A stretch of 62,235 bases of DNA from Kiloniellales bacterium (GTDB taxonomy: Bacteria > Pseudomonadota > Alphaproteobacteria > Kiloniellales > JAKSBE01), in contig JASJBF010000024.1 of NCBI GenBank assembly GCA_030066685.1, positions 1-62,235 on the forward strand, in the 5' to 3' direction. Positions 4,936 through 37,899 of this stretch are shown here, piece after piece. The position numbers and the translations under genes are program-made. The notes beneath the pieces are model-generated. The model saw only the letters and a program-made list of their open reading frames with translations. It was not told the origin of the DNA and searched no databases. Each line of letters begins with the position of its first letter. Position 1 is the stretch's first letter.

Positions 4936-5736
4936 ATGCCGGCGCCGCTGGAGCGGGGCCGCGCTGTGTCCGACGTCTTTCTTCTGCTGATCTCGCCCTT
5001 CGTGGGCAGCTTTCTCGGGGTGCTGGTGCTGCGGCTGCCGCGCGGCGAGGGGGTGGTGGCCGGGCGCTCGCGCTGCCCGCACTGCGGGACGACCCTGGGC
5101 GCGGCGGACCTGGTGCCGCTGCTGTCCTACCTGCTACGCGCGGGCAAGTGCCGGCACTGCGGGGCGCGGCTGTCCTGGCTCTATCCGGGGATCGAGCTGG
5201 CCGCGCTGGGGGTTGCGGGCTGGGCGCTCTGGGTGCTTTCCGGGAGCGGGCAGGCCGCGGGCTGGCTGGTCTGGGCCGGGGCGGCGCTGGGCTGGGCGCT
5301 GCTGGCCCTGGCCTTGATCGACCTGCGGCACTTCCTGCTGCCGGACGCGCTCACCCTGCCGCTGATCCCGGCCGGGCTGGCGGTGGCCTGGCTGGTCGAG
5401 CCGAGCAAGCTGCTGCCCCACGGGATCGGCGCGGCGGCCGGCTTCGCCGCCTTCACCGTGCTCACCTGGGGCTACCGGCGCTTTCGCGGGCGCGAGGGCC
5501 TGGGCCTGGGCGACGCCAAGCTCTTCGCCGCCGCCGGGGCCTGGGTCTCCTGGCAGGGGCTCGGCTCGGTGCTGCTCTGGGCCGTGCTGCCGGCGCTGGC
5601 GGTGACCCTGGTGCTGGGGCTGCGCCGCGGCGGACTGTCCGGGCGCACGCCGCTGCCCTTCGGCGCCTACCTGGCGGCGGGGCTCTGGCTGACCTGGCTC
5701 TACGGCCCGCTGCAGCCGACCTGGGCGCTGCCCTGA
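4936..5736 (+). CDS. gspO: Type IV prepilin peptidase (GspO/PilD family)
   Basis: This inner-membrane aspartic protease cleaves, and usually N-methylates, the prepilins. Here those are GspG, H, I, J and K, and perhaps the Flp pilin at 29 kb, although Flp pilins often use CpaA. The N-terminal zinc motif is present (CPHCG at about 47 and CRHCG at about 73). Catalytic aspartates lie in IDLRHFLLPD (about 128) and in the GxGD motif GLGLGDAKL (about 190). Seven to eight hydrophobic segments are visible. The length, 266 residues, is normal. A GTG at 4966 (SDVFLLLISPF) is an equally plausible start. It sits about 1 kb before gspE, so the peptidase belongs to the type II locus although it is transcribed separately. 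Confidence 0.9.
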   Translation: MPAPLERGRAVSDVFLLLISPFVGSFLGVLVLRLPRGEGVVAGRSRCPHCGTTLGAADLVPLLSYLLRAGKCRHCGARLSWLYPGIELAALGVAGWALWVLSGSGQAAGWLVWAGAALGWALLALALIDLRHFLLPDALTLPLIPAGLAVAWLVEPSKLLPHGIGAAAGFAAFTVLTWGYRRFRGREGLGLGDAKLFAAAGAWVSWQGLGSVLLWAVLPALAVTLVLGLRRGGLSGRTPLPFGAYLAAGLWLTWLYGPLQPTWALP

Positions 5737-5796
5737 GCGGGCCGAGGCGCCCTGCGGTTGCAAGCCGCGCGGGATCGTATCATCCTCTTGATCTAC

Positions 5797-5830
5797 GGCG
5801 AGACGGGGGCCGGGGGGGCCTCGTCTCGCC
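5797..5830 (+). terminator. Hairpin terminator after gspO
   Basis: GGCGAGACG and CGTCTCGCC form a 9-bp perfect stem around a G-rich 16-nt loop, 60 bp after gspO. No strong T-run follows. Confidence 0.5.
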
Positions 5831-5967
5831 GTGCTCTATAGCGTTGAGTGAGGGCGGGATTCGGACCCGACGTCCGGTCGGCTTCGAAGCGTTCCGCTCC
5901 AGGTCATGAAAGGCCGCCGCCCGCGCGGTTCGTCGCGGCGGCGGGCGCAGTTCCGGGGGGAATAAGA

Positions 5968-6204
5968 ATGCGATATGTGGTTGTTGTGCTGGCGCTGCTC
6001 TGCCTTGGCGCCTGCGCCAAGGAGGTCGTCTGGTCCAAGCCCGGCGTCACGGCCGAGCAGCTGGAGAAGGACAAGGCGGCCTGCACCAAGGAGGTTCCCA
6101 AGGCCGCCGGCGGCGGCACGGGCTCGGCGCCGACCACCTACCGGCTCAAGCAGATCCAGCCCAAGTGCATGGAAGGCCTGGGCTACACCCGGAGCCTGGA
6201 GTAG
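5968..6204 (+). CDS. Small outer-membrane-type lipoprotein
   Basis: The ATG at 5968 gives 78 residues with a lipoprotein signal (MRYVVVVLALLCLGACAK; lipobox LGAC, Cys16). The mature part (EVVWSKPGVTAEQLEKDKAACTKEV...YRLKQIQPKCMEGLGYTRSLE) contains two cysteines that could pair. The W.KPG.T..Q...D...C pattern is common in short proteobacterial lipoproteins in which a small residue group recurs before a C-terminal CMEA.GY-like motif. Function is unknown. It lies between gspO and the T2SS operon and ends before a strong terminator, so it is a single-gene unit. Confidence 0.75.
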   Translation: MRYVVVVLALLCLGACAKEVVWSKPGVTAEQLEKDKAACTKEVPKAAGGGTGSAPTTYRLKQIQPKCMEGLGYTRSLE

Positions 6205-6253
6205 GGCGGCGCGCCGGCCCGCCGCCGGGCCGGGCGCGAAACTCGGAAAAAGT

Positions 6254-6285
6254 AAGCGGGCCGGTCTTCATGACCGGCCCGCTTT
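6254..6285 (+). terminator. Strong intrinsic terminator
   Basis: AAGCGGGCCGGT, loop CTTCATG, ACCGGCCCGCTT makes a 12-bp stem followed by T, with AAAAA upstream on the other side. It ends the lipoprotein transcript and isolates the T2SS operon. Confidence 0.8.
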
Positions 6286-6796
6286 GCGGGGGAGTGGAGC
6301 GAGTGGGCTGAACGGTGAGGGCCTTCAGTCGCCTGACGACCTTCGTGTTCAGCCTAGGGTCGCAACTTGCCACCGGAAGGCTGCTCTCTCCGATCCTGGT
6401 GGCGGGCGGGTGACCAAGCCGGCCCGCCGGGCCACGACCATTGAGAGTGCCAACACAGGAAAAAGACTACCGCTACTCTTGCGGGAAAATCAATAGAGGA
6501 ATTGCTGCCTGTCGCCTTTACGCCTTCACCGCGTCACATTTTTGCGGCCTCTAGGGAGGGGAACGGTTGCGCCCAAGGGCGCGGGGCGGCCGCGGAAACC
6601 GGCCCGAAGCGGGCGCTCTCGCGTGCGGGTTGAAACACTTTGTCGCGGCGGCGGGGCGCGGTAAACTGGCCCCGCGCCCGACGGGCCCGGGCGCCGCGAT
6701 CCCGCGCTTCGGGGCCGCCGGGCGGACCGGGGCGCGGCAGCGGGTTCGGGCCGGCGGCCGAGACTGGCGACACCAAGGAGGAGAGGGACGGTCCCC
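6286..6796 (+). promoter_or_regulatory. Leader/promoter region of the gspE operon with motif shared with gspC
   Basis: No convincing gene lies in these 511 bp. At 6627-6661 the sequence GGGT-N5-CACTTTGTCG-N7-GGG-N-CGCGG occurs; the same pattern is found upstream of gspC at 13961-13995. The gspE ribosome site AAGGAGGAG lies 14-20 bp before its ATG. Confidence 0.45.
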
Positions 6797-8503
6797 ATGC
6801 TGGATCGTGCCCAAGAGGTTCCGGAGATCGACGACCTGATCGGCGCGCGACTGGTCGCCCAGGGCAAGCTGGAGCAGAGCGCGCTGCAACGGGCCGAACG
6901 CGCGCGCGCGGAGAGCGGCGAGCGCCTGGACCGGGTGCTGACCCGGCTCGGCCTGGTCGGTGAGCGCGACATGGCCGAGGCCATGGCCGCCGAGCTGGAG
7001 CTGCCGATCGTCGGCGCCGAGGACTACCCCGAGGCGCCGGTCCTGGACGGCCTGCTCTCGGTGCGCTTCCTGAAGAACAGCCGGGTCCTGCCGCTCTCGG
7101 AAGACGAGGCCGGGATCGCGCTGGCCATGGCCGACCCGCTGGATCGCTTCGCGATCGAGGCCGTGGCCCTGCGCGCCGAGCGGCCGGTGCGGCCGCACGT
7201 CGCGGTGGCGGCCGAGCTGGAGAACGCGCAGGAGCGGCTCTACAGCGGCGGCAAGACCTCGATCGACCAGATCGCAGAGAGCCTCGAGGAGGGCGACGAG
7301 GAGACCACCGAGGCCGACGTCGAGCGGCTGCGCGACCTGGCCAGCGAGGCGCCGGTGATCCGGATCGTCAACCACCTGATCACCAAGGCGGTCGAGGCGC
7401 GGGCCTCGGACATTCACATCGAGCCCTTCGAGGCCCAGCTCCGGGTGCGCTACCGGATCGACGGTGTGCTGCAGGACGTCGACGCGCCGCCGGCCCGGCT
7501 GCGCGCGGCGATCATCTCGCGCATCAAGATCATGGCCAAGCTCAACATCGCCGAGCACCGCCTGCCCCAGGACGGCCGGATCAAGATCGTCGCCCGCGGC
7601 AAGGAGATCGACCTGCGCGTCTCGACCCTGCCGGCGCTGCACGGCGAGGGCGTGGTGCTGCGCATCCTGGACCGCGAGGGCGTGGTCCTGGACTTCGATT
7701 CCCTCGGCTTCGACGACACGACCCAGGGCCGGTTCCTCGACCTGATCGAGCGGCCGACCGGGATCATGCTGGTGACCGGGCCGACCGGCAGCGGCAAGAC
7801 CACCACCCTCTACACCTCGCTCACCCACTTGAACTCGCCGGAGAAGAAGATCATCACCGTCGAGGACCCGGTCGAGTACCAGCTGCGCGGAGTCAACCAG
7901 ATCCAGGTCAAGCCCAAGATCGGCCTGACCTTCGCCAACGCCCTGCGCTCGATCCTGCGCCAGGACCCGGACATCATCATGATCGGCGAGATCCGCGACC
8001 TGGAGACCGCGCAGATCGCGGTCCAGGCGGCGCTGACCGGGCACCTGGTCCTGGCGACCCTGCACACCAACACCGCCGCGGCGACCATCACCCGGCTGCT
8101 CGACATGGGGGTCGAGGACTACCTGGTGACCTCGACCGTGGTCGGGATCCAGGCCCAGCGCCTGGTGCGCCGGCTCTGCCCGGCCTGCCGCGAGCCCTAC
8201 CAGGCCCTGCCCGAGCTGGTCCGGCAGATCGACCCGCAGGCCGAGGGCCCGATGACGCTCTACCGGCCCAAGGGCTGCAAGCAGTGCAACGGCCAGGGCT
8301 ACCGCGGCCGCATGGGCGTGCTGGAGGTCCTGCCGATGACCGACGAGGTCCGCCGCCTGGTCCTGCAGCACGCCGAGTCGCAGGAGATCCACAAGGCCGC
8401 GGTCGCCGCCGGCATGCGCTCGATGTATCAGGACGGCGTGACCAAGGCCCGCCTGGGCGTCACCACCCTGGAAGAGGTGGTCCGGGTGACCAGCGAGCAG
8501 TAG
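6797..8503 (+). CDS. gspE: Type II secretion ATPase GspE
   Basis: This cytoplasmic hexameric ATPase powers pseudopilus assembly at the inner-membrane platform. Of 568 residues, about 1-150 are the N-terminal GspE domains (MshEN-like, LTRLGLVGERDMAEAMAAELELP). The ATPase core includes Walker A GPTGSGKTTT (about 328), the Asp box TVEDPVEY, Walker B IIMIGEIRDLETA and the His box LATLHTNTA. The C-terminal zinc tetracysteine is present (CPAC at about 460, CKQC at about 494), as in true GspE. It is the first gene of gspEFGHIJLM. Confidence 0.97.
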   Translation: MLDRAQEVPEIDDLIGARLVAQGKLEQSALQRAERARAESGERLDRVLTRLGLVGERDMAEAMAAELELPIVGAEDYPEAPVLDGLLSVRFLKNSRVLPLSEDEAGIALAMADPLDRFAIEAVALRAERPVRPHVAVAAELENAQERLYSGGKTSIDQIAESLEEGDEETTEADVERLRDLASEAPVIRIVNHLITKAVEARASDIHIEPFEAQLRVRYRIDGVLQDVDAPPARLRAAIISRIKIMAKLNIAEHRLPQDGRIKIVARGKEIDLRVSTLPALHGEGVVLRILDREGVVLDFDSLGFDDTTQGRFLDLIERPTGIMLVTGPTGSGKTTTLYTSLTHLNSPEKKIITVEDPVEYQLRGVNQIQVKPKIGLTFANALRSILRQDPDIIMIGEIRDLETAQIAVQAALTGHLVLATLHTNTAAATITRLLDMGVEDYLVTSTVVGIQAQRLVRRLCPACREPYQALPELVRQIDPQAEGPMTLYRPKGCKQCNGQGYRGRMGVLEVLPMTDEVRRLVLQHAESQEIHKAAVAAGMRSMYQDGVTKARLGVTTLEEVVRVTSEQ

Positions 8504-28947: not shown

Positions 28948-29092
28948 GGCCGACTCCTGGTAAACGGTTGGTTACTATATAAGTATAGAAGAAATACCTG
29001 TGTGACATTACCTGTGACGAAAACATTTATTAACAGATTCCGGGCAGTATTCATAAGTCTGTCTGTTTGGATATCGGGAAGGGATGGCGTTC

Positions 29093-29266
29093 ATGTCGCA
29101 CCTCAAGAATTTCGTCAGGGACGAATCCGGCGCGACCTCCATGGAATACGCCTTTATTGCTGCCCTGATCGGTCTCGCCATCGTCGGTGGACTGACGACG
29201 CTCGGCACCTCGGTCGACAGCGCTTTCCAGGGCTTCGCCACGCACCTCAGCACAAACACCCCCTGA
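29093..29266 (+). CDS. Flp/Fap-type pilin subunit
   Basis: The ATG at 29093 is best placed relative to the Shine-Dalgarno GGGAAGGG (29076-29083); an ATG at 29084 would add three residues. The 57-residue prepilin has a short leader and the Flp signature RDESGATSMEYAFIAALIGLAIVGGLTTLG, with Glu and Tyr in the processing motif (G/ATSMEY). Flp pilins form tight-adherence (Tad) pili. No tad/cpa genes are in the window, so the assembly machinery must be elsewhere. The upstream 28948-29080 is AT-rich (TATATAAG at about 28976) and is the probable promoter. A strong terminator follows. Confidence 0.9.
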   Translation: MSHLKNFVRDESGATSMEYAFIAALIGLAIVGGLTTLGTSVDSAFQGFATHLSTNTP

Positions 29267-29565: not shown

Positions 29566-30087
29566 CTACCAGCGAAGGATCAGGTAGCCGTTGCGGACTT
29601 CGTAGCTCTCCAGGCGGGACAGGAAGCTCATGCCCAGGAGCGAGATCGACATCGGCGCATCGTTGACGATGGCATCGACGTCCTCCAGGTAGATCTCCTC
29701 GATCCGCAGGTCGCGGAGCCGGACCGGCGCGGCCCGGCCGTAGCCGTTGGCGGTCTTGGTGCGGATCGTGTAGTTCAGTTCGTCGAAGTTGATGCCGATC
29801 GCGTCGGCGGCCTCGTGGTTGAGGAAGATGCCGCTGGCACCGGTGTCGACCAGGAAGGGCACCTCGGCGCCGTCGATCATCACGTCAAGGTAGTAATGGC
29901 CGTCCCGGGACACCGGGATGCTCATCTCGTTGCCGCTGTATTGCATGGGCGCTTCGCTGCGGGCCACGGCCGCGGTCTGCGGCGCCCTGTCGGCCGCCGG
30001 TCCGCTCCAGTCCTGCTTCGCGAGGAAACTGGCCCCGAAGACCACGAAACCGACCAGGAACACCGTCCTGATGGACCACCAGAGCAT
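29566..30087 (-). CDS. Membrane-anchored retropepsin-like aspartic protease (TIGR02281 type)
   Basis: The 173-residue product has an N-terminal membrane anchor (IRTVFLVGFVVFGASFLA) and a periplasmic protease domain. GHYYLDVMIDGAEVPFLVDTGASGIFLNHEAADAIGI carries the single catalytic DTGA motif; the flap and C-terminal hydrophobic loop are ISLLGMSFLSRLESYEVRNGYLIL. One active-site Asp per chain means it must dimerise, as retroviral proteases do. This family is common in alphaproteobacteria. It is a single gene, convergent with the Flp pilin; substrates are unknown. Confidence 0.9.
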   Translation of the reverse strand: MLWWSIRTVFLVGFVVFGASFLAKQDWSGPAADRAPQTAAVARSEAPMQYSGNEMSIPVSRDGHYYLDVMIDGAEVPFLVDTGASGIFLNHEAADAIGINFDELNYTIRTKTANGYGRAAPVRLRDLRIEEIYLEDVDAIVNDAPMSISLLGMSFLSRLESYEVRNGYLILRW

Positions 30088-30270: not shown

Positions 30271-30867
30271 TCAGCGGTGCCGGTTCTGCGAGGGCTGCGC
30301 CAGGGCGGGCAGGTTCACCTCCGGCGGCGCGGTCAGGGTTTGGAGATCCTCGCGCGAGCTCTGGTGCTCGAACTCGAGGGGCCTCTCGGCCTCCGCCGGC
30401 ACCTTCGGCGGCAGCTTGGGCTGCGGCGCGGCGTAGAACTTCTTCTCGCGCTGCTCGAGGCTCGGCTGGAAGGGCTTGCCCATCATCAGGGGCTGGCCCT
30501 TGCTTTCGGCCTCGCGCTTGGCGCCGTGCATCTGCTTCGCCAGCTGCTTGTCCCAGGGCAGGACGTAGGCCCGGGGCTCGGTCACGCCTTCCATTTCCAG
30601 CCAGACGTAGATCGCCTCGCCTTCCTTCATGCGGGTGCCGAGGACCTGGGCCTGCTTGGCCTGGCGGTGCAGCCATTCCAGATCGGCCGGCTTCGGCCGG
30701 CTCAGCAGATCGGTCATGGTGAAGTAGGCGACGGGCAGGAAGAAGGCCAGGGTGCAGAGCGCGGTGCACTTCAGCCAGACCTTGCGCGGTGTCCAGATGG
30801 CGATGCTGCCCAGGATGCCGGCCAGCACCGTGACGCCGGCGAAGAACGGAAGCAGCTCGTTCATCAC
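30271..30867 (-). CDS. Membrane protein of the MotA/ExbB-like unit (third gene)
   Basis: The 198-residue product has two N-terminal membrane segments (LLPFFAGVTVLAGILGSIAIW and CTALCTLAFFLPVAYFTMTDLL). An extramembrane region follows: KPADLEWLHRQAKQAQVLGTRMKEGEAIYVWLEMEGVTEPRAYVLPWDKQLAKQMHGAKREAESKGQPLMMGKPFQPS, then a Pro/Gln/Glu-rich tail. The EAIYVWLE....PRAYVLPWD...A..... pattern is a recognisable small-protein signature, but I cannot name the family. Its ATG overlaps the stop of the preceding gene by 4 bp (ATGA), so it belongs to the same operon as the channel and the DUF2135-like protein. Confidence 0.75.
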   Translation of the reverse strand: MMNELLPFFAGVTVLAGILGSIAIWTPRKVWLKCTALCTLAFFLPVAYFTMTDLLSRPKPADLEWLHRQAKQAQVLGTRMKEGEAIYVWLEMEGVTEPRAYVLPWDKQLAKQMHGAKREAESKGQPLMMGKPFQPSLEQREKKFYAAPQPKLPPKVPAEAERPLEFEHQSSREDLQTLTAPPEVNLPALAQPSQNRHR

Positions 30868-31478
30868 GACCTCGCGGCGCGCAGCGGCTTTGGCAGGTCG
30901 TGAACGCTGCCGGGCAGAAGATAGCCTTCCCGGTCCAGCGAGAAGCGGAAGGCGGTCAGCTCCTCGCCGTCGCGCCGCAGCGTCACCTGGGTGTTGAGGA
31001 TCTGGCGCGCCGCCTCCTTGGGGTTGCGCTTGATGCTGACCACGATCGACACCGGCAGCGGGAAGATGCCCTCGTTGTTGCGGTACATGTGGACGTTGAC
31101 CGTGTACTCGCCGGCCGGCACGCCGCGGCTGTAGGAGACCTCGTAGTTCAGGTTGGTGACGTCGGCCTGGCGGCCGAGGTCGTCGCGCAGCAGGTTGAAG
31201 ATCTGGCCGCCCTTGTTGGAATAGCCGACCGGCACGTCGCCGGGCGCCTCGACCCAGAGGTCGACGTCGGCGTCGACGCTGTCGGACCAGCGCAGCTCGA
31301 CGATCACGTTGCCCGGGCTGTCGATGCTCTCCTTGGCCTTGGCCGGCGGGTTGAGGTGCGGCAGCAGCAGAATCACCATCGCCACGAAGCCGGCGAGGGC
31401 GAGCAGGATCACGTCACGGAAGACGGTGTCCGTGCCCTCCTCGTCGTCGAAGAAATCAAGATTCGGCATGGTGTTCAC
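30864..31478 (-). CDS. Single-pass membrane protein with DUF2135-like periplasmic domain
   Basis: The 204-residue product has an acidic cytoplasmic N-terminus (MPNLDFFDDEEGTDTVFRD), one membrane helix (VILLALAGFVAMVILLLPHL) and a periplasmic beta domain. This topology matches MotB/ExbD/TolR, which supply the proton-carrying helix. No Asp lies inside the hydrophobic core, although Asp residues precede it (TVFRD). The periplasmic part reads VIVELRWSDSVDADVDLWVEAPGDVPVGYSNKGGQ...GVPAGEYTVNVHMYRNN, the D-x-D-x-D-L-W/H pattern of DUF2135/YfaP-type beta-sandwich domains that probably bind calcium. No OmpA or TolR domain is present. It overlaps the channel gene by 23 bp. Confidence 0.75.
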   Translation of the reverse strand: MNTMPNLDFFDDEEGTDTVFRDVILLALAGFVAMVILLLPHLNPPAKAKESIDSPGNVIVELRWSDSVDADVDLWVEAPGDVPVGYSNKGGQIFNLLRDDLGRQADVTNLNYEVSYSRGVPAGEYTVNVHMYRNNEGIFPLPVSIVVSIKRNPKEAARQILNTQVTLRRDGEELTAFRFSLDREGYLLPGSVHDLPKPLRAARS

Positions 31479-32214
31479 CGAATTCGATCAAGCCGGTGAT
31501 CAGCTTCGCGGTGCCGCCGGCCAGGAGCCGGTAGTTGGCCATGAGCCAGAGGTTGAGGATCGCGCCGACCAGGGTGGTGTAGAGCGCGGTCGACATGCCC
31601 GCGACCAGGGTCGAGACCATGGGCGAGACCGATTCGATGTCGGAGGCCTTCTCCGGATCGACGCCGGACAGGGCGATGATGAAGCCGACCACCGTGCCGA
31701 CCAGGCCGAGCAGGACCAGGCTGCCGGCGATGTGCCGGATGCCCGAAATGCGCTGGCTCAGCTTGATCCGCATCGCGGCGGAGAGGATCGCGCGGCTGCC
31801 GTCGCTGCGGCCGCGGACCTGCGCCAGGTAGGCGGCGGCCTTGGAGGGCACCAGGGGATCGAAATCGTGCAACAGGTTCAGCTCGCGGCTGGTCTGCCAG
31901 ACCCGAAGGGCGCAGAACACCAGGCCGACCAGAAAGACGAGGAAGATGATCGCGCAAAGGCGGGTCTGGTCGGCCATCGTCACCATCTCGACGAAGCCCT
32001 GGAACCAGGCCGCGCCCAGAAGGGCGAAGGCGATGATGTTCAGTAGCGTGAAGCGGAACAGCAGGAGGAACTGGAAAGGCGTCTGCTCGTTGGGCCGGAA
32101 CTGGGACATGATCCAGGCCAGCTGGCGATTGCCGGCGAATTGATCGCTGCCGTGGAGTTCGGCGCCTGCGGTCAGGCCATGTGCCTCTCTAGCGGCTGGG
32201 GCGGTCGGTCCCAT
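31456..32214 (-). CDS. MotA/TolQ/ExbB-like proton channel subunit
   Basis: The 252-residue product has about three to four membrane helices: FLLLFRFTLLNIIAFALLGAAWF, LCAIIFLVFLVGLVFCALRVW, IAGSLVLLGLVGTVVGFIIALSG and VAGMSTALYTTLVGAILNLWLMANY. The last two carry the MotA/TolQ/ExbB signature (L.GT..G.I.AL and GM..AL.TTL.G.....). Such proteins form pentamers that conduct protons and drive a partner helix dimer. The ATG at 32214 has GAGGAG 8 bp upstream. It is the first gene of a three-gene unit and lies 166 bp downstream of the type I secretion genes on the same strand. Confidence 0.88.
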   Translation of the reverse strand: MGPTAPAAREAHGLTAGAELHGSDQFAGNRQLAWIMSQFRPNEQTPFQFLLLFRFTLLNIIAFALLGAAWFQGFVEMVTMADQTRLCAIIFLVFLVGLVFCALRVWQTSRELNLLHDFDPLVPSKAAAYLAQVRGRSDGSRAILSAAMRIKLSQRISGIRHIAGSLVLLGLVGTVVGFIIALSGVDPEKASDIESVSPMVSTLVAGMSTALYTTLVGAILNLWLMANYRLLAGGTAKLITGLIEFGEHHAES

Positions 32215-32380: not shown

Positions 32381-33739
32381 TCAGCGCTCGTCGAAGGCGT
32401 TGTCCAGCGAGCGGTAGACCGGCTTCAGCAGGTACTCCAGCAGGGTCTTGCCGCCGGTGTTGATCCGGGCGTCGACCACCATGCCCGGCAGGATCAGGTT
32501 GCGCTCGGGTTGATTGCCGACATGGTTCTTGTCCAGGGAGATCGTCGCCTTGTAGTAGGGCTCGCCGTTCTCGTCCTGGAAGGTCGAGGCCGAGACCTGG
32601 GTCACGGTGCCCGGGATCGTGCCGTAGCGGACCGTGTCGTAGGTGCTGATGCTGACCTCGGCCTTCTGGTCGACCCGGATGTGTCCGACGTCGCGGGGCG
32701 AGAGCCGGACCTCGGCGACCATGACGTCGTCGATCGGCACGATCTCCATCAGGATCTCGCCGGGCGCGATTACGCTGCCCAGGGTGCGGGTGTTCAGGCC
32801 TTTGACCCGGCCCCGCACCGGCGCCTTGATGTCGAGCCGGACCACCCGGTCCTCCAGCTTGGCCAGCAGCTCGGTCACCTGCGCCAGCTCGGCGCTGACC
32901 GTGCCCATCTCGTCGAGGGCCTCGTTGCGCAGGCGCGCTTCAAGCTCGGCCAGGCTGCTCCTGGCCTCGGCCTTGGCCTCGCGGGCCCGGGCCTGCTCGC
33001 CGACGACTGCGGCCAGGTCGCCGCGGGCCTTGCTGAGGTTGCGCTTGGTCTCGAGGTAGACGACGCGCGACACCAGGCCCTTCTTCAGCAGCTGGTCGCG
33101 CATGCCGACCTCTTCCTCGACGATCTCGACCTGGGCCTCGAGGCTGGCCCGTTGCTCGCCCAGGGCGTCGATCTCGGCCTGGCGCTGGTCGATCCGGGAC
33201 AGCAGGACCTCGCGCTGGCTGTCGCGGGTCCGCCGCTGCATCTCGAGGATCGCCTCCTGGTCGCGGATCAGGGCCGGGAAGGTCTCGCCCGAGGTAAAGT
33301 CCGGCGCGCTGTCGAGGACGAAGGCGCGCAGCCGCTCGGCTCGGACCGCGAGGGCCGCCTGGCGCGCCCTGAGCTGCTCGAGCTCGCCCTCGGCGGCGGC
33401 GCGTTCGAGCAGGACGAGCACCTCGTCGGCCTCGACCAGCTGGCCCTCGGAGACCCGGAGGTCGGAGACGATGCCGCCCTCCAGGTGCTGCACGACGTGG
33501 ACCGAGCCGGCCGGCATGACCTGGCCGTCGCCGACCGCGGTTTCCTGGACCTCGGTGACGCCGGCCAGGACCAGGAAGCCGCCGACCAGGACGCTGAGGG
33601 TGATCAGGAGCTGCCGCAGCAGGCGCGGCGGTCCGGCCTCCTCGAGCAGCAGGGGCTGGGAGAGGAAGCGCACGGTGCGCTGGCGGCCCCGCGACTTGGC
33701 GTCGTCGTCTTTTTTCGGAAGCATCAGGGGAGCGTTCAT
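32381..33739 (-). CDS. HlyD-family type I secretion periplasmic adaptor
   Basis: This 452-residue membrane-fusion protein bridges the inner-membrane ABC exporter and a TolC-type channel. One membrane segment (LLITLSVLVGGFLVLAGVTEV) precedes a lipoyl half (VQHLEGGIVSDLRVSEGQLVEADEVLVLL). A long coiled-coil hairpin spans about 125-290. The second lipoyl half and beta-barrel follow (APVRGRVKGLNTRTLGSVIAPGEILMEIVP...AEVRLSPRDVGHIRVDQKAEVSISTYD), ending LLEYLLKPVYRSLDNAFDER, a typical type I HlyD/PrtE ending. Its ATG overlaps the stop of the upstream ABC gene (ATGA). Confidence 0.93.
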   Translation of the reverse strand: MNAPLMLPKKDDDAKSRGRQRTVRFLSQPLLLEEAGPPRLLRQLLITLSVLVGGFLVLAGVTEVQETAVGDGQVMPAGSVHVVQHLEGGIVSDLRVSEGQLVEADEVLVLLERAAAEGELEQLRARQAALAVRAERLRAFVLDSAPDFTSGETFPALIRDQEAILEMQRRTRDSQREVLLSRIDQRQAEIDALGEQRASLEAQVEIVEEEVGMRDQLLKKGLVSRVVYLETKRNLSKARGDLAAVVGEQARAREAKAEARSSLAELEARLRNEALDEMGTVSAELAQVTELLAKLEDRVVRLDIKAPVRGRVKGLNTRTLGSVIAPGEILMEIVPIDDVMVAEVRLSPRDVGHIRVDQKAEVSISTYDTVRYGTIPGTVTQVSASTFQDENGEPYYKATISLDKNHVGNQPERNLILPGMVVDARINTGGKTLLEYLLKPVYRSLDNAFDER

Positions 33740-35913
33740 GCCGCGGCAGCCTCCTGCATCTTTGCAAGCACAGCCTCGGGATGCCCGGCCAGGGCGACCA
33801 TGCCGGAATCGAGCACGATCAAGCGGTCGGCCAGGCGCATGTGACTGGGGCGCTGGGTGACGATGAAGACGGTCGCCCGGCCGCGCAGCTGCTGCAGCTT
33901 GCGCATCAGCGCGGTGTCGCCGGCGGCGTCGAGGTGATAGGCGGGCTCGTCGAGGAGGTAGATCGAGGCCTGGGTGACGTAGGCCCGGGCCAGGATGATC
34001 TTCTGCTTCAGGCCGCGCGGCAGCTGGCGCTGCAGGCGGTCGGTCAGGCGGGTCTCGAAGCCCTCGGGCAGCGAGAGGATGTCCTCCAGCAGGCCGGCAT
34101 CGAGGGCGGCCTGGGCCAGTTCGGCGTCGCTGGCGGTCGGATTGGCCAGGCGCAGGTTCTGGGCGATCGTGCCGTGGAAGAGGTGGCAGGTCTGCGGGAC
34201 GTAGCCGATCGAGGTGCGCAGCTCGCCGACGTCGAGCTGCCGCAGGTCGATGCCGTCGATCATCACCGCGCCGGCCTGGGGCTGGTAGAGGCCGGCGATC
34301 AGCTTGAGGACCGAGGACTTGCCGACGCCGTTGGCGCCAGCCACGGCGACCATCTCGCCGGGCTTGACCGTGAAGTTGATGCCGAAGAGGGCCGGCTCGG
34401 AATCGGCGGTGTAGCGCAGGCTGGCCCGGCGGAAGGCGACCTCGCCCTTGAAGCTGCGCAGGCCCGAGCCGATCCGGCCCGGCTCCCGCTCGAGCTTGAG
34501 GCGCATCAGCTGGTTCATCTGCTTCAGGCCGAGCTTGACCTGCTCCAGCCGGGTCAGGCTGAGAAAGCCGACCTGCAGCGGCGACAGCACCCGCCAGACC
34601 AGGGCCATGGTGGCGATCAGGGCACCGACGGTCATCGCCCCGTCCAGCACCTGCAAGGTTCCGAGGGTCGCGGTGGCGATGCCGGCTGCGAACATCAGGG
34701 TCTGGGACAGGGTCTGCACGAAGACCGAGATCCGGCTGGTCCGGAAGTTGGCGAGCGCGGCCTTGGCGCCGATCTCCCGGTAGCGGCCGCTCCAGGTCCG
34801 CTCCAGGGCGCACTGCTTGATCGCCCGCATGTTCGAGATCATCTCGATGGCGAAGGACTGGCGCCGGGCCCGGGCCTCGCCGGACTCCGCCACGGCGCCG
34901 CGCATGCTGGGCAGGATGGCGAGCGCGGCGCAGAGGAAGACCGCGGTCAGGATGATCGGGATCCAGGCCAGGGGACCGGCGATGAGGCCGATCACGGCGA
35001 CGAAGATCACCAGGAAGGGCAGCTCCAGGAAGACCCCGGCCAGGGGTCCGGTGAAGAACTCGCGCACGGATTCGAACTGCCTGAGGCGCGAGACCTGGGC
35101 GCCGATCGTGGCACGCTCGGTCATGACGATGGGCAGGTGCAGGATCTGTTGCAGCGCCGCGGCGCCGAGGATCACGTCGATGCGCGCTCCGACGTAGGCC
35201 AAGACGCGGGCCCGGAGGAACCGCAGGGCGGCGTCTATGGCCAGGGCCAGAAGGACCCCTAAGAACAGGAAGCCAAGGGTCGAGAGCGACCGGCTCGGGA
35301 TGACCCGGTCATAGACCGTCATGATGAACAGCGGCACGGCGAGGGCCAGGACGCTGTTGAGGAAGGTGATCCCCAGCATCTGCAGGACCAGGCCGCGGAA
35401 GCGCTGCGCGACCGACCGAAACCAGTCGTCCTGCGGCCGGCGCTCGGCCTCGCCGTCGGAGTCCCGTGCCGAGACGAAGTAGGCGGTGCCCGCCATCGGC
35501 AGGGCGGCCTGGAAGCCGGTCTCGGCGGTCGCGGCGTCGAAGGCCCGGAAGCCGCCGTCGGCTTCTTCGAGCAGCACCTTGGCCGCGCCGTCATCCGGCA
35601 CGAAGAGGCAGGGCAGCAGCCGAGGATCCAGGTGGTCGAGGCTGAGCTCGGCCGGCCGGGTGACGTAGTTCAGGTTGGCCAGGACGTTGAGCAGGTCGAC
35701 GATGTCGAGGCTGTCGGCGAAGTGCGGCATGGCCTCCGCGAGCTGCCGCGGGTTGCCGTGCCAGCCCAGGGCCGAGAGCAGCGGCATGAGGCAGGCGGCG
35801 ATGTCCGAGATCGCCCGGAACTCCCCCAGCTCGCCGCTCTGCAGGATCTGCTCCAGGCGATCGTGGCGCTGCCTCTGGGCGCCCCCGGTGCTGGCTGGGA
35901 CCAGGGCGCCCAT
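33736..35913 (-). CDS. Type I secretion ABC transporter, C39-like N-terminus, non-canonical signature motif
   Basis: The 725-residue protein has an N-terminal C39-peptidase-like domain (about 30-150) without a catalytic Cys in the usual place. Six membrane helices and a nucleotide-binding domain follow. Walker A is GANGVGKSS, the Q-loop is YVPQTCHLF, Walker B is SIYLLDEPAYHLD. The position of LSGGQ reads LPRGLKQK, and the H-loop reads VTQRPSH. Such domains recognise rather than cleave substrates in RTX-type exporters. It is the second of two ABC genes and overlaps both neighbours. Together with the first it probably forms a heterodimer; no RTX substrate gene was seen in the window. Confidence 0.9.
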   Translation of the reverse strand: MGALVPASTGGAQRQRHDRLEQILQSGELGEFRAISDIAACLMPLLSALGWHGNPRQLAEAMPHFADSLDIVDLLNVLANLNYVTRPAELSLDHLDPRLLPCLFVPDDGAAKVLLEEADGGFRAFDAATAETGFQAALPMAGTAYFVSARDSDGEAERRPQDDWFRSVAQRFRGLVLQMLGITFLNSVLALAVPLFIMTVYDRVIPSRSLSTLGFLFLGVLLALAIDAALRFLRARVLAYVGARIDVILGAAALQQILHLPIVMTERATIGAQVSRLRQFESVREFFTGPLAGVFLELPFLVIFVAVIGLIAGPLAWIPIILTAVFLCAALAILPSMRGAVAESGEARARRQSFAIEMISNMRAIKQCALERTWSGRYREIGAKAALANFRTSRISVFVQTLSQTLMFAAGIATATLGTLQVLDGAMTVGALIATMALVWRVLSPLQVGFLSLTRLEQVKLGLKQMNQLMRLKLEREPGRIGSGLRSFKGEVAFRRASLRYTADSEPALFGINFTVKPGEMVAVAGANGVGKSSVLKLIAGLYQPQAGAVMIDGIDLRQLDVGELRTSIGYVPQTCHLFHGTIAQNLRLANPTASDAELAQAALDAGLLEDILSLPEGFETRLTDRLQRQLPRGLKQKIILARAYVTQASIYLLDEPAYHLDAAGDTALMRKLQQLRGRATVFIVTQRPSHMRLADRLIVLDSGMVALAGHPEAVLAKMQEAAAA

Positions 35914-37691
35914 CAGGCCGATGCCTCCTCTTGCGGCGCCTGCGGCTCGGCCTTGAGCTTGAGCCGGCTGTCCTGAAGCAGGAACTGCCGGTCGGCCAGA
36001 GCGAGCAGCGAGGGACGATGGCTCACCAGGATGACGGTGGCCGCGCCCTTGAGGCTGGCGATCGCGGTCTTGAGCGTGTCGTCGCTGCGCCGGTCGAGCC
36101 CGGAGTTGGCCTCGTCGAAGAGCACCACCTTCGGCGTGCCGGCCAGGGCGCGGGCCATGGCGATGCCTTGCTGCAGGCCGGTCGGCAGGGCTTCGAAGGC
36201 GCCTTCGCCGACCTTGGTCTCGTAGCCGGCCGGCAGGCGGTTGATCGCCTCGTCGAGGCGCAGCAGGCGGGCGGCTTCCAGCGCCTGGTTGATCTTCCCG
36301 GGCCCGGCGAAGGACGTCAGGTTGTCCATGATCGTGCCCTTGAACAGGACCGCGCTCTGCGGCAGGTAGGCGACCTGCTCGCGCAGCGAATGCGGGTCCA
36401 GATCGCGGATGTCCTGGCCGTCGAAGCAGACCTCCCCCTCGGTCGGCTTCAGGGCGTTGAGGATCAGCATCAGCAGGGTCGACTTGCCGCTTCCGGTGTC
36501 GCCGCTGACGCCGATCACCTCGCCGGCGCCGATCGAGAGGTTGACGTCGCGGAACAGAGGCGGCGCACCCGGATAGCCGAAGGTCAGGTTCCTGAGCTCG
36601 ATCGCGCCGCGGATCTCGCCGGCCGGCGCCGCGTCGGCCTCGGCTTCCGGATCCATGTCGAAGATCTGCTGCAGGCGCTCGCGGGCGACGCTGATGTTCT
36701 GGAACTGGGTCCAGAGCGACAGCGCGCGCAGGGGCGGCTGGACCGAGCGCCCGGCGAGCAGGGTGCAGGCGGCCAGGCCGCCGATGCTCAGCTGGCCGTC
36801 GATCACCAGGATCGCGCCCAAGGCGCCGACGCCGACCATGGTCAGGTTGGAGAAGCCGGCACCCAGGCCTTGCGCCAGGTTGCTGAAAAAGGTGGTGTCG
36901 TAGGTGCTGGCCGCGCTGCTCTCCTGAAGCCGGTCGTAGCGGCGCTGCATCTGCGCTTCCATCGCCAGGCCCTTGACCGTGTTGATACCGGTCAGCACCT
37001 CGATGATGAAGCTGTAGCGGCGGTCGTCCAGCGTGGCCCGGGTCTCCAGGGCCAGCTTCAGCTGCCGCCCGACCAGCAGGGCGGCCCCGGCCAGCAGGAC
37101 CAGCGCCAGCATTGGCACCAGGACCAGAAAGCCGCCGATGAAGGCGACCAGACCGAGGAAGAGCAGGACGAAGGGCAGGTCGACGACCAGGATCTTGGCC
37201 TGTCCGGAAAGAAAGTCCCGCAGGGTGTCGACGGCGTTCAGACGGTCCAGGTGGACGCCGGGCGCCTCGCGCTCGAAGCTGCCGATGTCGCAGGACACCA
37301 GGCGGTCGACCGCGCGGCAGCCGGCGATCTGCTCGAACTGCGCGGCATGCCAGCCCAGGATGTTGGCGCGCGCCACCCGCAGCACGCCGTCGATCACCAG
37401 GGCGGCGACCAGGCCCAGCATCAGGATCAGCAGGGTGTCGGTCGCGGTGTTCGGAATGATGCGGTCGTAGATCTGCAGCAGGACCGCGGGCAAGGCCAGC
37501 GAGAGCACGTTGATGGTCAGCGACGCCGCCGTCACGCCGCGCGAGGGCCGCGGCAGGTTCTCGAGCTCGCTGGCCGAGGGTGACCAGCGGCCGCTCTTCG
37601 CGAGCTCGGAAAGGAGGGTGGTCGGCGACGACACGAAGGCTCCAATTGCAGACGCCACGGCCAGGTCTGGTGGCCCGGTCCGCTGAGACAT
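35913..37691 (-). CDS. Type I secretion ABC transporter, partner subunit
   Basis: The 592-residue protein has six membrane helices (about 60-330) and a nucleotide-binding domain: Walker A GDTGSGKST, Q-loop AYLPQSAVLF, Walker B KVVLFDEANSGLD, H-loop LVSHRPS. The signature motif reads LPTGLQQG instead of LSGGQ. It lacks the C39-like domain of its partner. The ATG at 37691 has GGAG close upstream; an in-frame TTG at 37703 is the alternative start. Its stop and the next start share one base (TGATG). It heads the ABC-ABC-HlyD operon, and the AT-rich 37692-37899 is its promoter region. Confidence 0.9.
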   Translation of the reverse strand: MSQRTGPPDLAVASAIGAFVSSPTTLLSELAKSGRWSPSASELENLPRPSRGVTAASLTINVLSLALPAVLLQIYDRIIPNTATDTLLILMLGLVAALVIDGVLRVARANILGWHAAQFEQIAGCRAVDRLVSCDIGSFEREAPGVHLDRLNAVDTLRDFLSGQAKILVVDLPFVLLFLGLVAFIGGFLVLVPMLALVLLAGAALLVGRQLKLALETRATLDDRRYSFIIEVLTGINTVKGLAMEAQMQRRYDRLQESSAASTYDTTFFSNLAQGLGAGFSNLTMVGVGALGAILVIDGQLSIGGLAACTLLAGRSVQPPLRALSLWTQFQNISVARERLQQIFDMDPEAEADAAPAGEIRGAIELRNLTFGYPGAPPLFRDVNLSIGAGEVIGVSGDTGSGKSTLLMLILNALKPTEGEVCFDGQDIRDLDPHSLREQVAYLPQSAVLFKGTIMDNLTSFAGPGKINQALEAARLLRLDEAINRLPAGYETKVGEGAFEALPTGLQQGIAMARALAGTPKVVLFDEANSGLDRRSDDTLKTAIASLKGAATVILVSHRPSLLALADRQFLLQDSRLKLKAEPQAPQEEASA

Positions 37692-37899
37692 TTCTCCGAA
37701 CAAACCCCTTATGATTTAAAGATTATTACTTGCTGTTTGGTTAATTGGCGGAATCCCTGGGGATGCAGGGGGATCGCCACGCTCGGGAGCGACTTGGCCC
37801 GCCGTCGGACGTCGGGCAGATCCGTTATCCTCCAAGACGCAAAATACAGGTAAAGGATTTAAAATATAGATACAGAAACAGATTTACGGTTGTGACGAT
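37692..37899 (-). promoter_or_regulatory. AT-rich promoter region of the type I secretion operon
   Basis: This is one of the least GC-rich stretches of the window, lying between the EamA stop and the first ABC gene. Several A/T blocks (for example at 37708-37740 and 37845-37915) make a promoter likely, but no specific -35/-10 pair or operator can be assigned. Confidence 0.4.

Follow-up and report, generated by a model that had tools for sequence, protein, structure and literature searches.

Three adjoining minus-strand genes of a Kiloniellales bacterium, called A, B and C here, were characterized at positions 30271-32214 of contig JASJBF010000024.1 (assembly GCA_030066685.1); the whole stretch of 62,235 nucleotides (nt) that was analysed is referred to as the window. 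The trio encodes a channel subunit of the ExbB/MotA type, a single-pass membrane protein and a two-helix membrane protein, and probably represents a new proton-driven family of the ExbB-ExbD/TolQ-TolR/MotA-MotB superfamily that has passed between bacteria and phages. The features of the locus are listed below.

31456 to 32214, minus strand: gene A, ExbB/MotA-type channel subunit of 252 amino acids (aa) with four predicted helices
30864 to 31478, minus strand: gene B, single-pass ExbD/MotB-like subunit of 204 aa with a DUF2135-like periplasmic domain
30271 to 30864 (or 30867), minus strand: gene C, two-helix membrane protein of 197-198 aa, C-terminal part predicted to be periplasmic
31413 to 31415, minus strand: codon for Asp22 of B, a candidate for the proton-carrying residue, where the helix starts on the cytoplasmic side
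31140 to 31268, minus strand: acidic cluster of B (D71, D73, D99, D100, D106, N111 and E113), candidate Ca2+ site
30867 to 31331, minus strand: periplasmic beta domain of B, remote DUF2135 relative by hhalign comparison with YfaP

The three open reading frames (ORFs) were all present and overlapping, as a preliminary description of this DNA had stated. The ATG at 31469 matches the start position of B in most relatives and, if B starts there, A and B share 14 nt; the B/C overlap is a single base (TGATG). Among relatives, the A/B overlap was again 14 nt, or 8 nt (six loci) or 23 nt (one locus), and the B/C overlap was 1 or 4 nt in most, three loci instead having gaps of 2, 4 and 30 nt. Because both overlaps recur in relatives, the overlap of the genes goes beyond chance.

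The gene A product matched Pfam MotA_ExbB (PF01618) above the curated cut-off (E 9.1e-9; 35.6 bits, cut-off 22.9) and Thr was kept in both pore helices, in agreement with the MotA/TolQ/ExbB-type channel that had been proposed. Hydropathy analysis gave hydrophobic stretches at residues 45-79, 77-109, 158-187 and 202-220, which were read as four helices, and charge counts in the aligned family showed that the loop charges alternate as a four-helix topology predicts. The motifs G170-x-x-G173-T174-V-x-G177 and A210-L-x-T213-T214-L-x-G217 were conserved among 165 bacterial and viral rows; residue 174 was T in 152, N in 12 and M in one, and residue 214 was T in 159 and S in six. From these motifs, we take T174 and T214 to be the equivalents of the pore-helix Thr residues of TolQ and ExbB. 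The sole match of the A family profile to PDB sequences at E 1 or better was a MotA (8gqy, E 0.012). Matches of A to ZorA models were weak (E 1.8e-6 for the window copy and 7.5e-9 for the copy of phage 16-3) and were confined to the channel region common to the superfamily (about residues 145-226 of window A); the NCBIfam ZorA models were not reached by the window trio (best 19.3 bits, cut-off 100). The window genome contains four further MotA_ExbB matches, which are presumably of the TolQ and MotA types judging from their motifs.

Gene B has a single hydrophobic segment by hydropathy (residues 17-46), and the start of this helix reads F-R-D22-V-I. The residue expected at the helix mouth of a proton-driven subunit had been named as a check, and Asp22 occupies this position: it was found in 28/28 rows covering the site in a first alignment of 29 rows, in 29/29 rows of a wider alignment, in 110/115 viral rows and in 163/168 ungapped bacterial and viral rows taken together. 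The features by which ExbD/TolR and MotB subunits are recognized, namely a single N-terminal helix, an Asp at its cytoplasmic end and an adjoining channel gene, were all found in B. A profile of the first 60 residues, built from bacterial and viral rows, aligned with an ExbD/TolR profile Asp on Asp (hhalign P 8.8e-5, probability 60%), and the whole-B profile gave P 2.1e-4 (probability 46%); the ExbD/TolR profile comprised 29 rows from relatives (26 distinct), chosen by the helix motif, of which 8 carry Asn at the site. Against the same profile, the controls gave P values of 0.021 (reversed B), 0.052 (C), 0.21 (C N-terminus), 0.48 (B head) and 0.5 (A). The suggestion that B has the topology of MotB and ExbD therefore held, with the Asp residues aligned. 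No Pfam or NCBIfam family matched window B, and ExbD/TolR (PF02472) was absent both from the three families matched by 29 family members and from the 25 matches listed of the 45 obtained with 56 diverse B members; one of these 56 matched MotB_plug (E 0.059). By analogy with the known subunits, Asp22 would carry protons. Of the five viral loci that lack it, L138, L140, L141 and L149 group in a single clade, and L150, a fragment resembling them, is outside the tree described below; all five retain A and B, and also C where the contig extends far enough. Since the residue was lost in these loci, the proton step would not be universal.

The helix of B is followed by a D71-V-D73-L-W motif and a beta domain, which is unlike the TolR/ExbD head (P 0.48, as above); no OmpA-type family appeared in Pfam and NCBIfam scans of window B or in a Pfam scan of 29 members, and a beta domain thus stands where an OmpA or TolR head would, as originally reported. 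In hhalign comparisons, the B head matched E. coli YfaP at P 3.7e-6 (probability 87%), with 20 shuffles at 0.063-0.58. YfaP was the only comparison sequence, as no DUF2135 protein was found at E 0.001 in the window genome or 35 relatives; TerD proteins were likewise absent from these 36 genomes. Weak matches to Pfam DUF2135 (PF09906) were obtained for 14/29 B family members (best E 0.0057) and 5/56 diverse members (best E 2.3e-4). Of the DUF2135-like head first described, a remote relationship was retained and direct membership was not, as window B has no Pfam DUF2135 match at E 5; judging from profile comparison, the head is a remote relative of DUF2135. An AlphaFold2 model of B had a mean predicted local distance difference test score of 69 and a predicted template modelling score (pTM) of 0.59, and a Foldseek search with it gave no match at E 0.001. 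TerD-type, DUF4425 and MmpS5 chains were among the first rows of a structural comparison, including 3ibz (TerD-type; Z 7.2, root-mean-square deviation 5.6, 126 residues aligned) and 2kxt (Z 5.6, deviation 4.5, 121 aligned), and Z values below 8 may reflect no more than a common arrangement.

The acidic residues of the B head were nearly invariant. D71, D73 and E113 were present in 171/171 bacterial and viral rows, D99, D100 and N111 in 170/171, and D106 in 169 with two gaps; D99 and D100 sit in a pattern used in one of the two IMG/VR scans and their viral conservation is partly selected, and D71, D73, D106, N111 and E113 lie outside all scan patterns. The natural reading of this cluster is a plausible Ca2+ site, in line with the calcium-dependent ligand suggested beforehand.

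Gene C, described beforehand as a two-helix membrane protein, indeed has two hydrophobic segments (residues 1-26 and 29-54). The loop between them (residues 24-34) has a mean net charge of +2.1 over 155 rows, and this positive charge predicts that the loop is inside and the C-terminal part outside. C matched no family, and a structure comparison gave no confident match for its fold.

Alphaproteobacteria and some Gammaproteobacteria share the conserved trio. Scanning of named genomes yielded 13 loci in records titled alphaproteobacterial, gammaproteobacterial or just proteobacterial, and B was detected in 17/38 genomes (the window genome included), in 38/289 genomes of the class and, with a wider profile at E 1e-8 or better, in 16/398 genomes of the phylum. 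Conservation of the trio, proposed initially as a check, was evident from the gene order A-B-C in 29/30 bacterial loci laid out (two of which are repeats: L037 of L007 and L038 of L006) and in 103/115 viral loci; the contig of the remaining bacterial locus ends before A. The class search gave 33 loci, 27 of which had a called B and were counted (no B was called in L084, L085, L091, L093, L096 and L112); A was adjacent in 26 and C was recognized in 20. Another gene follows B in L088, L094 and L102, and the contig ends in L100. Ten further bacterial loci contained A and B in all ten and C in nine. Azospirillum brasilense Sp7 has all three genes, and a search of plasmid records for B gave seven Azospirillum replicons. 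In one genome, two weakly B-like genes stand in tandem after an A-like gene (L116, 7620-9334).

Carriage of the trio by phages was unexpected and is the most unusual fact of the case. Among 50,697 deposited phage records, B was detected in 27, which are exclusively from Rhizobium or Sinorhizobium phages and some of which were deposited twice, and searches using viral B proteins again gave 27 deposited phage records each. Profile searches found A-B-C in order in all six deposited phages examined (NV1.1.1, 16-3, RHph_TM3_3_14B, RHph_N3_19, RHph_I1_18 and RHph_N34), with E-values of 1.6e-22 to 7.2e-6 for A, 1.1e-44 to 2e-40 for B and 5e-15 to 0.0051 for C; A is 113-158 aa long in these phages and the Asp of B is present in all six. 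In the record of phage 16-3, which infects Sinorhizobium meliloti, the trio genes are p038, p040 and p042. In two rhizobial phages, a homing endonuclease gene separates A from B (L117, 4270-5007; L119, 4243-5001). Two scans of IMG/VR, whose records are predicted viruses and many of them fragments, detected a B relative encoded in 110 and 371 stretches. The best 80 of each were studied, and 115 of 159 loci were kept, one per distinct B C-terminus, with near relatives remaining. These loci were read as plain ORFs, with an E 0.05 threshold for A and C. In 103 of the 115, B had A upstream and C downstream within 2.5 kilobases (kb) on the same strand; three had A without C, three had C without A, five may have their missing partner past the end of the contig, and one had no A and a contig that ends before C. 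Since deposited phages hold the trio, phage carriage is real despite the predicted status of the IMG/VR records.

The B tree (186 rows, of which 66 are bacterial and 120 viral) contained nine changes between bacterium and virus labels, at least four of which are forced by well-supported branches; it was built by a quick method with a midpoint root, has several long branches and excludes B rows of 140 aa or less, among them L150. Two clades lie among viral branches, namely that of the window, with 40 bacterial and 4 viral rows, and a distant one made up of 21 bacterial rows. Judging from this tree, the trio has been exchanged more than once between bacteria and phages. No phage context was seen around the bacterial copies except at L329 and perhaps L328.

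The neighbours of the trio differed among bacteria. Upstream in the window is a type I secretion set (32381-37703, minus strand) consisting of two ATP-binding cassette (ABC) permease/ATPases, for which the best model was LssB-type with a score below the cut-off, and an HlyD adaptor; directly after C is an aspartyl protease with a hydrophobic start (29566-30087, minus strand; gag-asp_proteas E 3.9e-24). Among the loci compared, both stand beside the trio in this genus only, and type I secretion was rejected as a partner for this reason. A short ORF at 29084-29266 (plus strand) is Flp-type pilin-like, an assignment we presume from its motif. Ten neighbour representatives from bacterial loci were scanned and comprised threonyl-tRNA synthetase, gamma-glutamyltranspeptidase, malate synthase, a glycosyltransferase, a universal stress protein, a dehydrogenase, the aspartyl protease of the window, two proteins without a family and one weak DUF3108_like match; no theme was common to them, and a constant bacterial partner was rejected. 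Genes of about 600 aa in L094, L102 and L088 had been considered as XoxF methanol dehydrogenases, and a family scan instead identified aspartyl-tRNA synthetase and sulfate adenylyltransferase. In four large genomes of two genera in one family (L322-L324 and L330), sensor kinase and response-regulator genes are divergent from the trio, the kinase being UhpB-like in the one copy scanned; L331 has no such divergent pair at the trio.

In ten loci of the distant bacterial clade, C is followed by a fourth gene, which is absent around the window. Homology among its copies was E 1.5e-29 or better to a profile from seven of the ten, and nine of the ten, all except L326, have a lipoprotein-type start by eye; in L089, the gene is present in three tandem copies (4942-7766). 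In L325-L327, which belong to one family, the trio and fourth gene are beside genes linked to pyrroloquinoline quinone (PQQ). A neighbour in L325 resembles a quinoprotein-relay metallohydrolase (75 bits, below the model cut-off of 300), and the neighbours in L327 are taken to be pqqBCDE-like, with those in L326 similar.

The viral neighbourhoods pointed to lysis in some lineages. In 20/115 viral loci, one trypsin-like protease cluster stands on the strand of B, 1.1-1.9 kb upstream, and in some phages such a protease precedes A. The protease family phrog_9683 matched 18/50 viral records, nine of them strongly (E 3.1e-40 or better); eight of the nine strong matches lie shortly upstream of B and the ninth (RHph_N34) is 72 kb away. 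No record with only weaker matches had one just upstream; in RHph_N3_19, one lies downstream at about 3 kb. The family is broad, as it also matched 11/14 control genomes. In L161-L165, clusters of an endolysin, an i-spanin and an o-spanin, assigned from one member per cluster, precede A, B and C on the same strand. The spanin family phrog_214 matched 11/50 viral records. In five of them (G334, G352, G355, RHph_TM3_3_14B and RHph_I1_18, with E 0.001-0.006 for the last three), the match is on the same strand and within 6 kb, and in the other six it is distant or on the opposite strand; 7/14 control genomes were matched as well. Endolysin phrog_181 was near the trio in 3/6 records and GH108 in 1/3. 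A general link of the trio to lysis was rejected, as it holds in some viral lineages only, and in those lineages a lysis-linked role is plausible. Seven loci (L168, L170, L171, L174, L178, L180 and L181) have a 320-aa membrane protein about 1.5 kb after B, with a weak PHROG match, which we assume to be SbmA/BacA-like; a gene upstream of the trio in this set is presumably Hsp20-like.

Comparison with known systems places the trio within the superfamily and apart from its described members. TolQ-TolR and ExbB-ExbD likewise consist of a channel gene and a single-pass subunit gene, with an Asp at the helix start, Thr in the pore and a subunit similar in size to B, but the head of B is DUF2135-related rather than of the TolR/ExbD type, the trio has a two-helix third subunit, and no Pal- or TolB-type gene was recognized beside it. 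The likeness to MotA-MotB lies in the four helices read in A, in the match to 8gqy and in the last helix of A (A-L-x-T-T-x-x-G), which resembles that of an L002 protein from the same genome that we take to be MotA-type; unlike MotB, B has neither an OmpA-type domain nor a long linker, and the A proteins of the six phages are shorter than the window copy. Zorya ZorA resembles A weakly in the channel region, but the trio lacks the long ZorA tail and a ZorB-type match. YfaP has a related beta domain with a D-x-D-L motif but adjoins yfaQ and yfaS and no channel gene. TerD-type Ca2+-binding beta sandwiches gave the top structural row for the B model, a comparison by structure and not by sequence.

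No system of this kind was described in the literature searched, most subscription journals and bioRxiv preprints lying outside it. The accessible parts of two superfamily papers (PMC12505986, PMC9389320) contain no mention of DUF2135 or of a phage-encoded motor, and those of a paper on phage AP-16-3 (PMC10460002) do not mention the trio genes. Full-text searches found no paper pairing DUF2135 with ExbB or 'Rhizobium phage' with ExbB, and no such system was evident in titles or abstract starts among the matches listed in the wider literature. The earlier statement that no described system of this composition was known agrees with these searches, although the superfamily itself is a known one.

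Since A is channel-like, the helix of B carries an Asp, the gene order is that of the superfamily and the head of B is related to DUF2135, we consider it fairly probable that the trio is a new, proton-driven family of this superfamily shared between bacteria and phages. By homology with known members, A subunits would form a ring in the inner membrane through which a pair of B helices is threaded, possibly in the 5:2 ratio named in the preliminary description, and protons would cross the A/B interface by way of Asp22 and the Thr residues in the last two helices of A, driving a relative movement of A and B. The DUF2135-type head of B, with its probable Ca2+ site, would sit directly above the membrane, with C adding a second periplasmic domain, and the heads and the outer domain of C may transmit the movement to a ligand in the periplasm or envelope. 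Expression by phages would most likely serve an action on the envelope of the host cell during infection, joined in some lineages by the secreted protease and lysis genes. Speculatively, the outcome might be a Tol-like upkeep of the envelope in bacteria, and loosening of the envelope or exclusion of rivals during infection. Several points weigh against this interpretation. The match of B to ExbD covers a single helix at an hhalign probability of only 46-60%, the profile used was selected by helix motif and has Asn instead of Asp in 8/29 rows, and Asp22 was lost in 5/115 viral loci. The order is A-C-B in L107, and C is not recognizable in L110. The bacterial neighbours point to no common function, the B model is of moderate quality with no Foldseek match passing the threshold, and C is unexplained, with a weak model (pTM 0.37).

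The trio could instead be a phage module for lysis or envelope release, in which it and the secreted trypsin-like protease act before or during lysis to loosen the outer membrane or its attachment to peptidoglycan, the bacterial copies having been domesticated. The protease cluster upstream of B, the position of eight of the nine strong phrog_9683 matches and the lysis clusters of L161-L165 favour such a module. The distant ninth match, the absence of weaker matches just upstream of B, the breadth of the protease and spanin families among control genomes, and the phrog_214, phrog_181 and GH108 matches, which were near the trio in only some of their records, all argue against it, as does the near lack of phage context around bacterial copies. 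Holins collapse the membrane potential, which would leave a motor de-energized at that stage. We regard this explanation as rather unlikely. A Zorya-like device for antiviral defence or superinfection exclusion that senses disturbance of the envelope is improbable; the weak ZorA matches and carriage by phages, which is compatible with excluding rivals, are consistent with it, but the matches cover the shared channel region only, A has no long tail, B matches neither known ZorB nor OmpA-type domains, and the scanned neighbour representatives were not defence genes.

It is more improbable still that A and B do not assemble, B being a membrane-anchored DUF2135-like protein and A a channel on its own or a simple leak. 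The A-B complex is itself a deduction and the Asp was lost in five viral loci, but the coupling of the genes, the conservation of the Asp and the match of B to the ExbD/TolR profile speak against this reading. The most improbable of the four is a TonB-like energizer for uptake of metal-linked compounds, for example in PQQ-dependent alcohol oxidation, as suggested by the PQQ-linked genes beside the trio and fourth gene in L325-L327. That context is limited to these three loci, the neighbours in L094, L102 and L088 encode aspartyl-tRNA synthetase and sulfate adenylyltransferase, no TonB-type gene was seen (no search was aimed at TonB), and the phage copies fit poorly.

Motors of this superfamily are known to drive flagella, the uptake of nutrients, maintenance of the outer membrane, gliding and defence against phages. 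With its different head and additional membrane subunit, the trio would extend this range by one family, and the hundreds of predicted viral sequences that contain it suggest the use of a proton-driven envelope machine by viruses. More tentatively, alphaproteobacterial phages may run their own three-subunit, proton-driven envelope motor with a Ca2+-binding, DUF2135-like head and remodel the envelope of their hosts with it, bacteria having repeatedly adopted or donated the genes. If this is true, the remodelling would loosen the outer membrane from the wall before lysis or shut out rivals.

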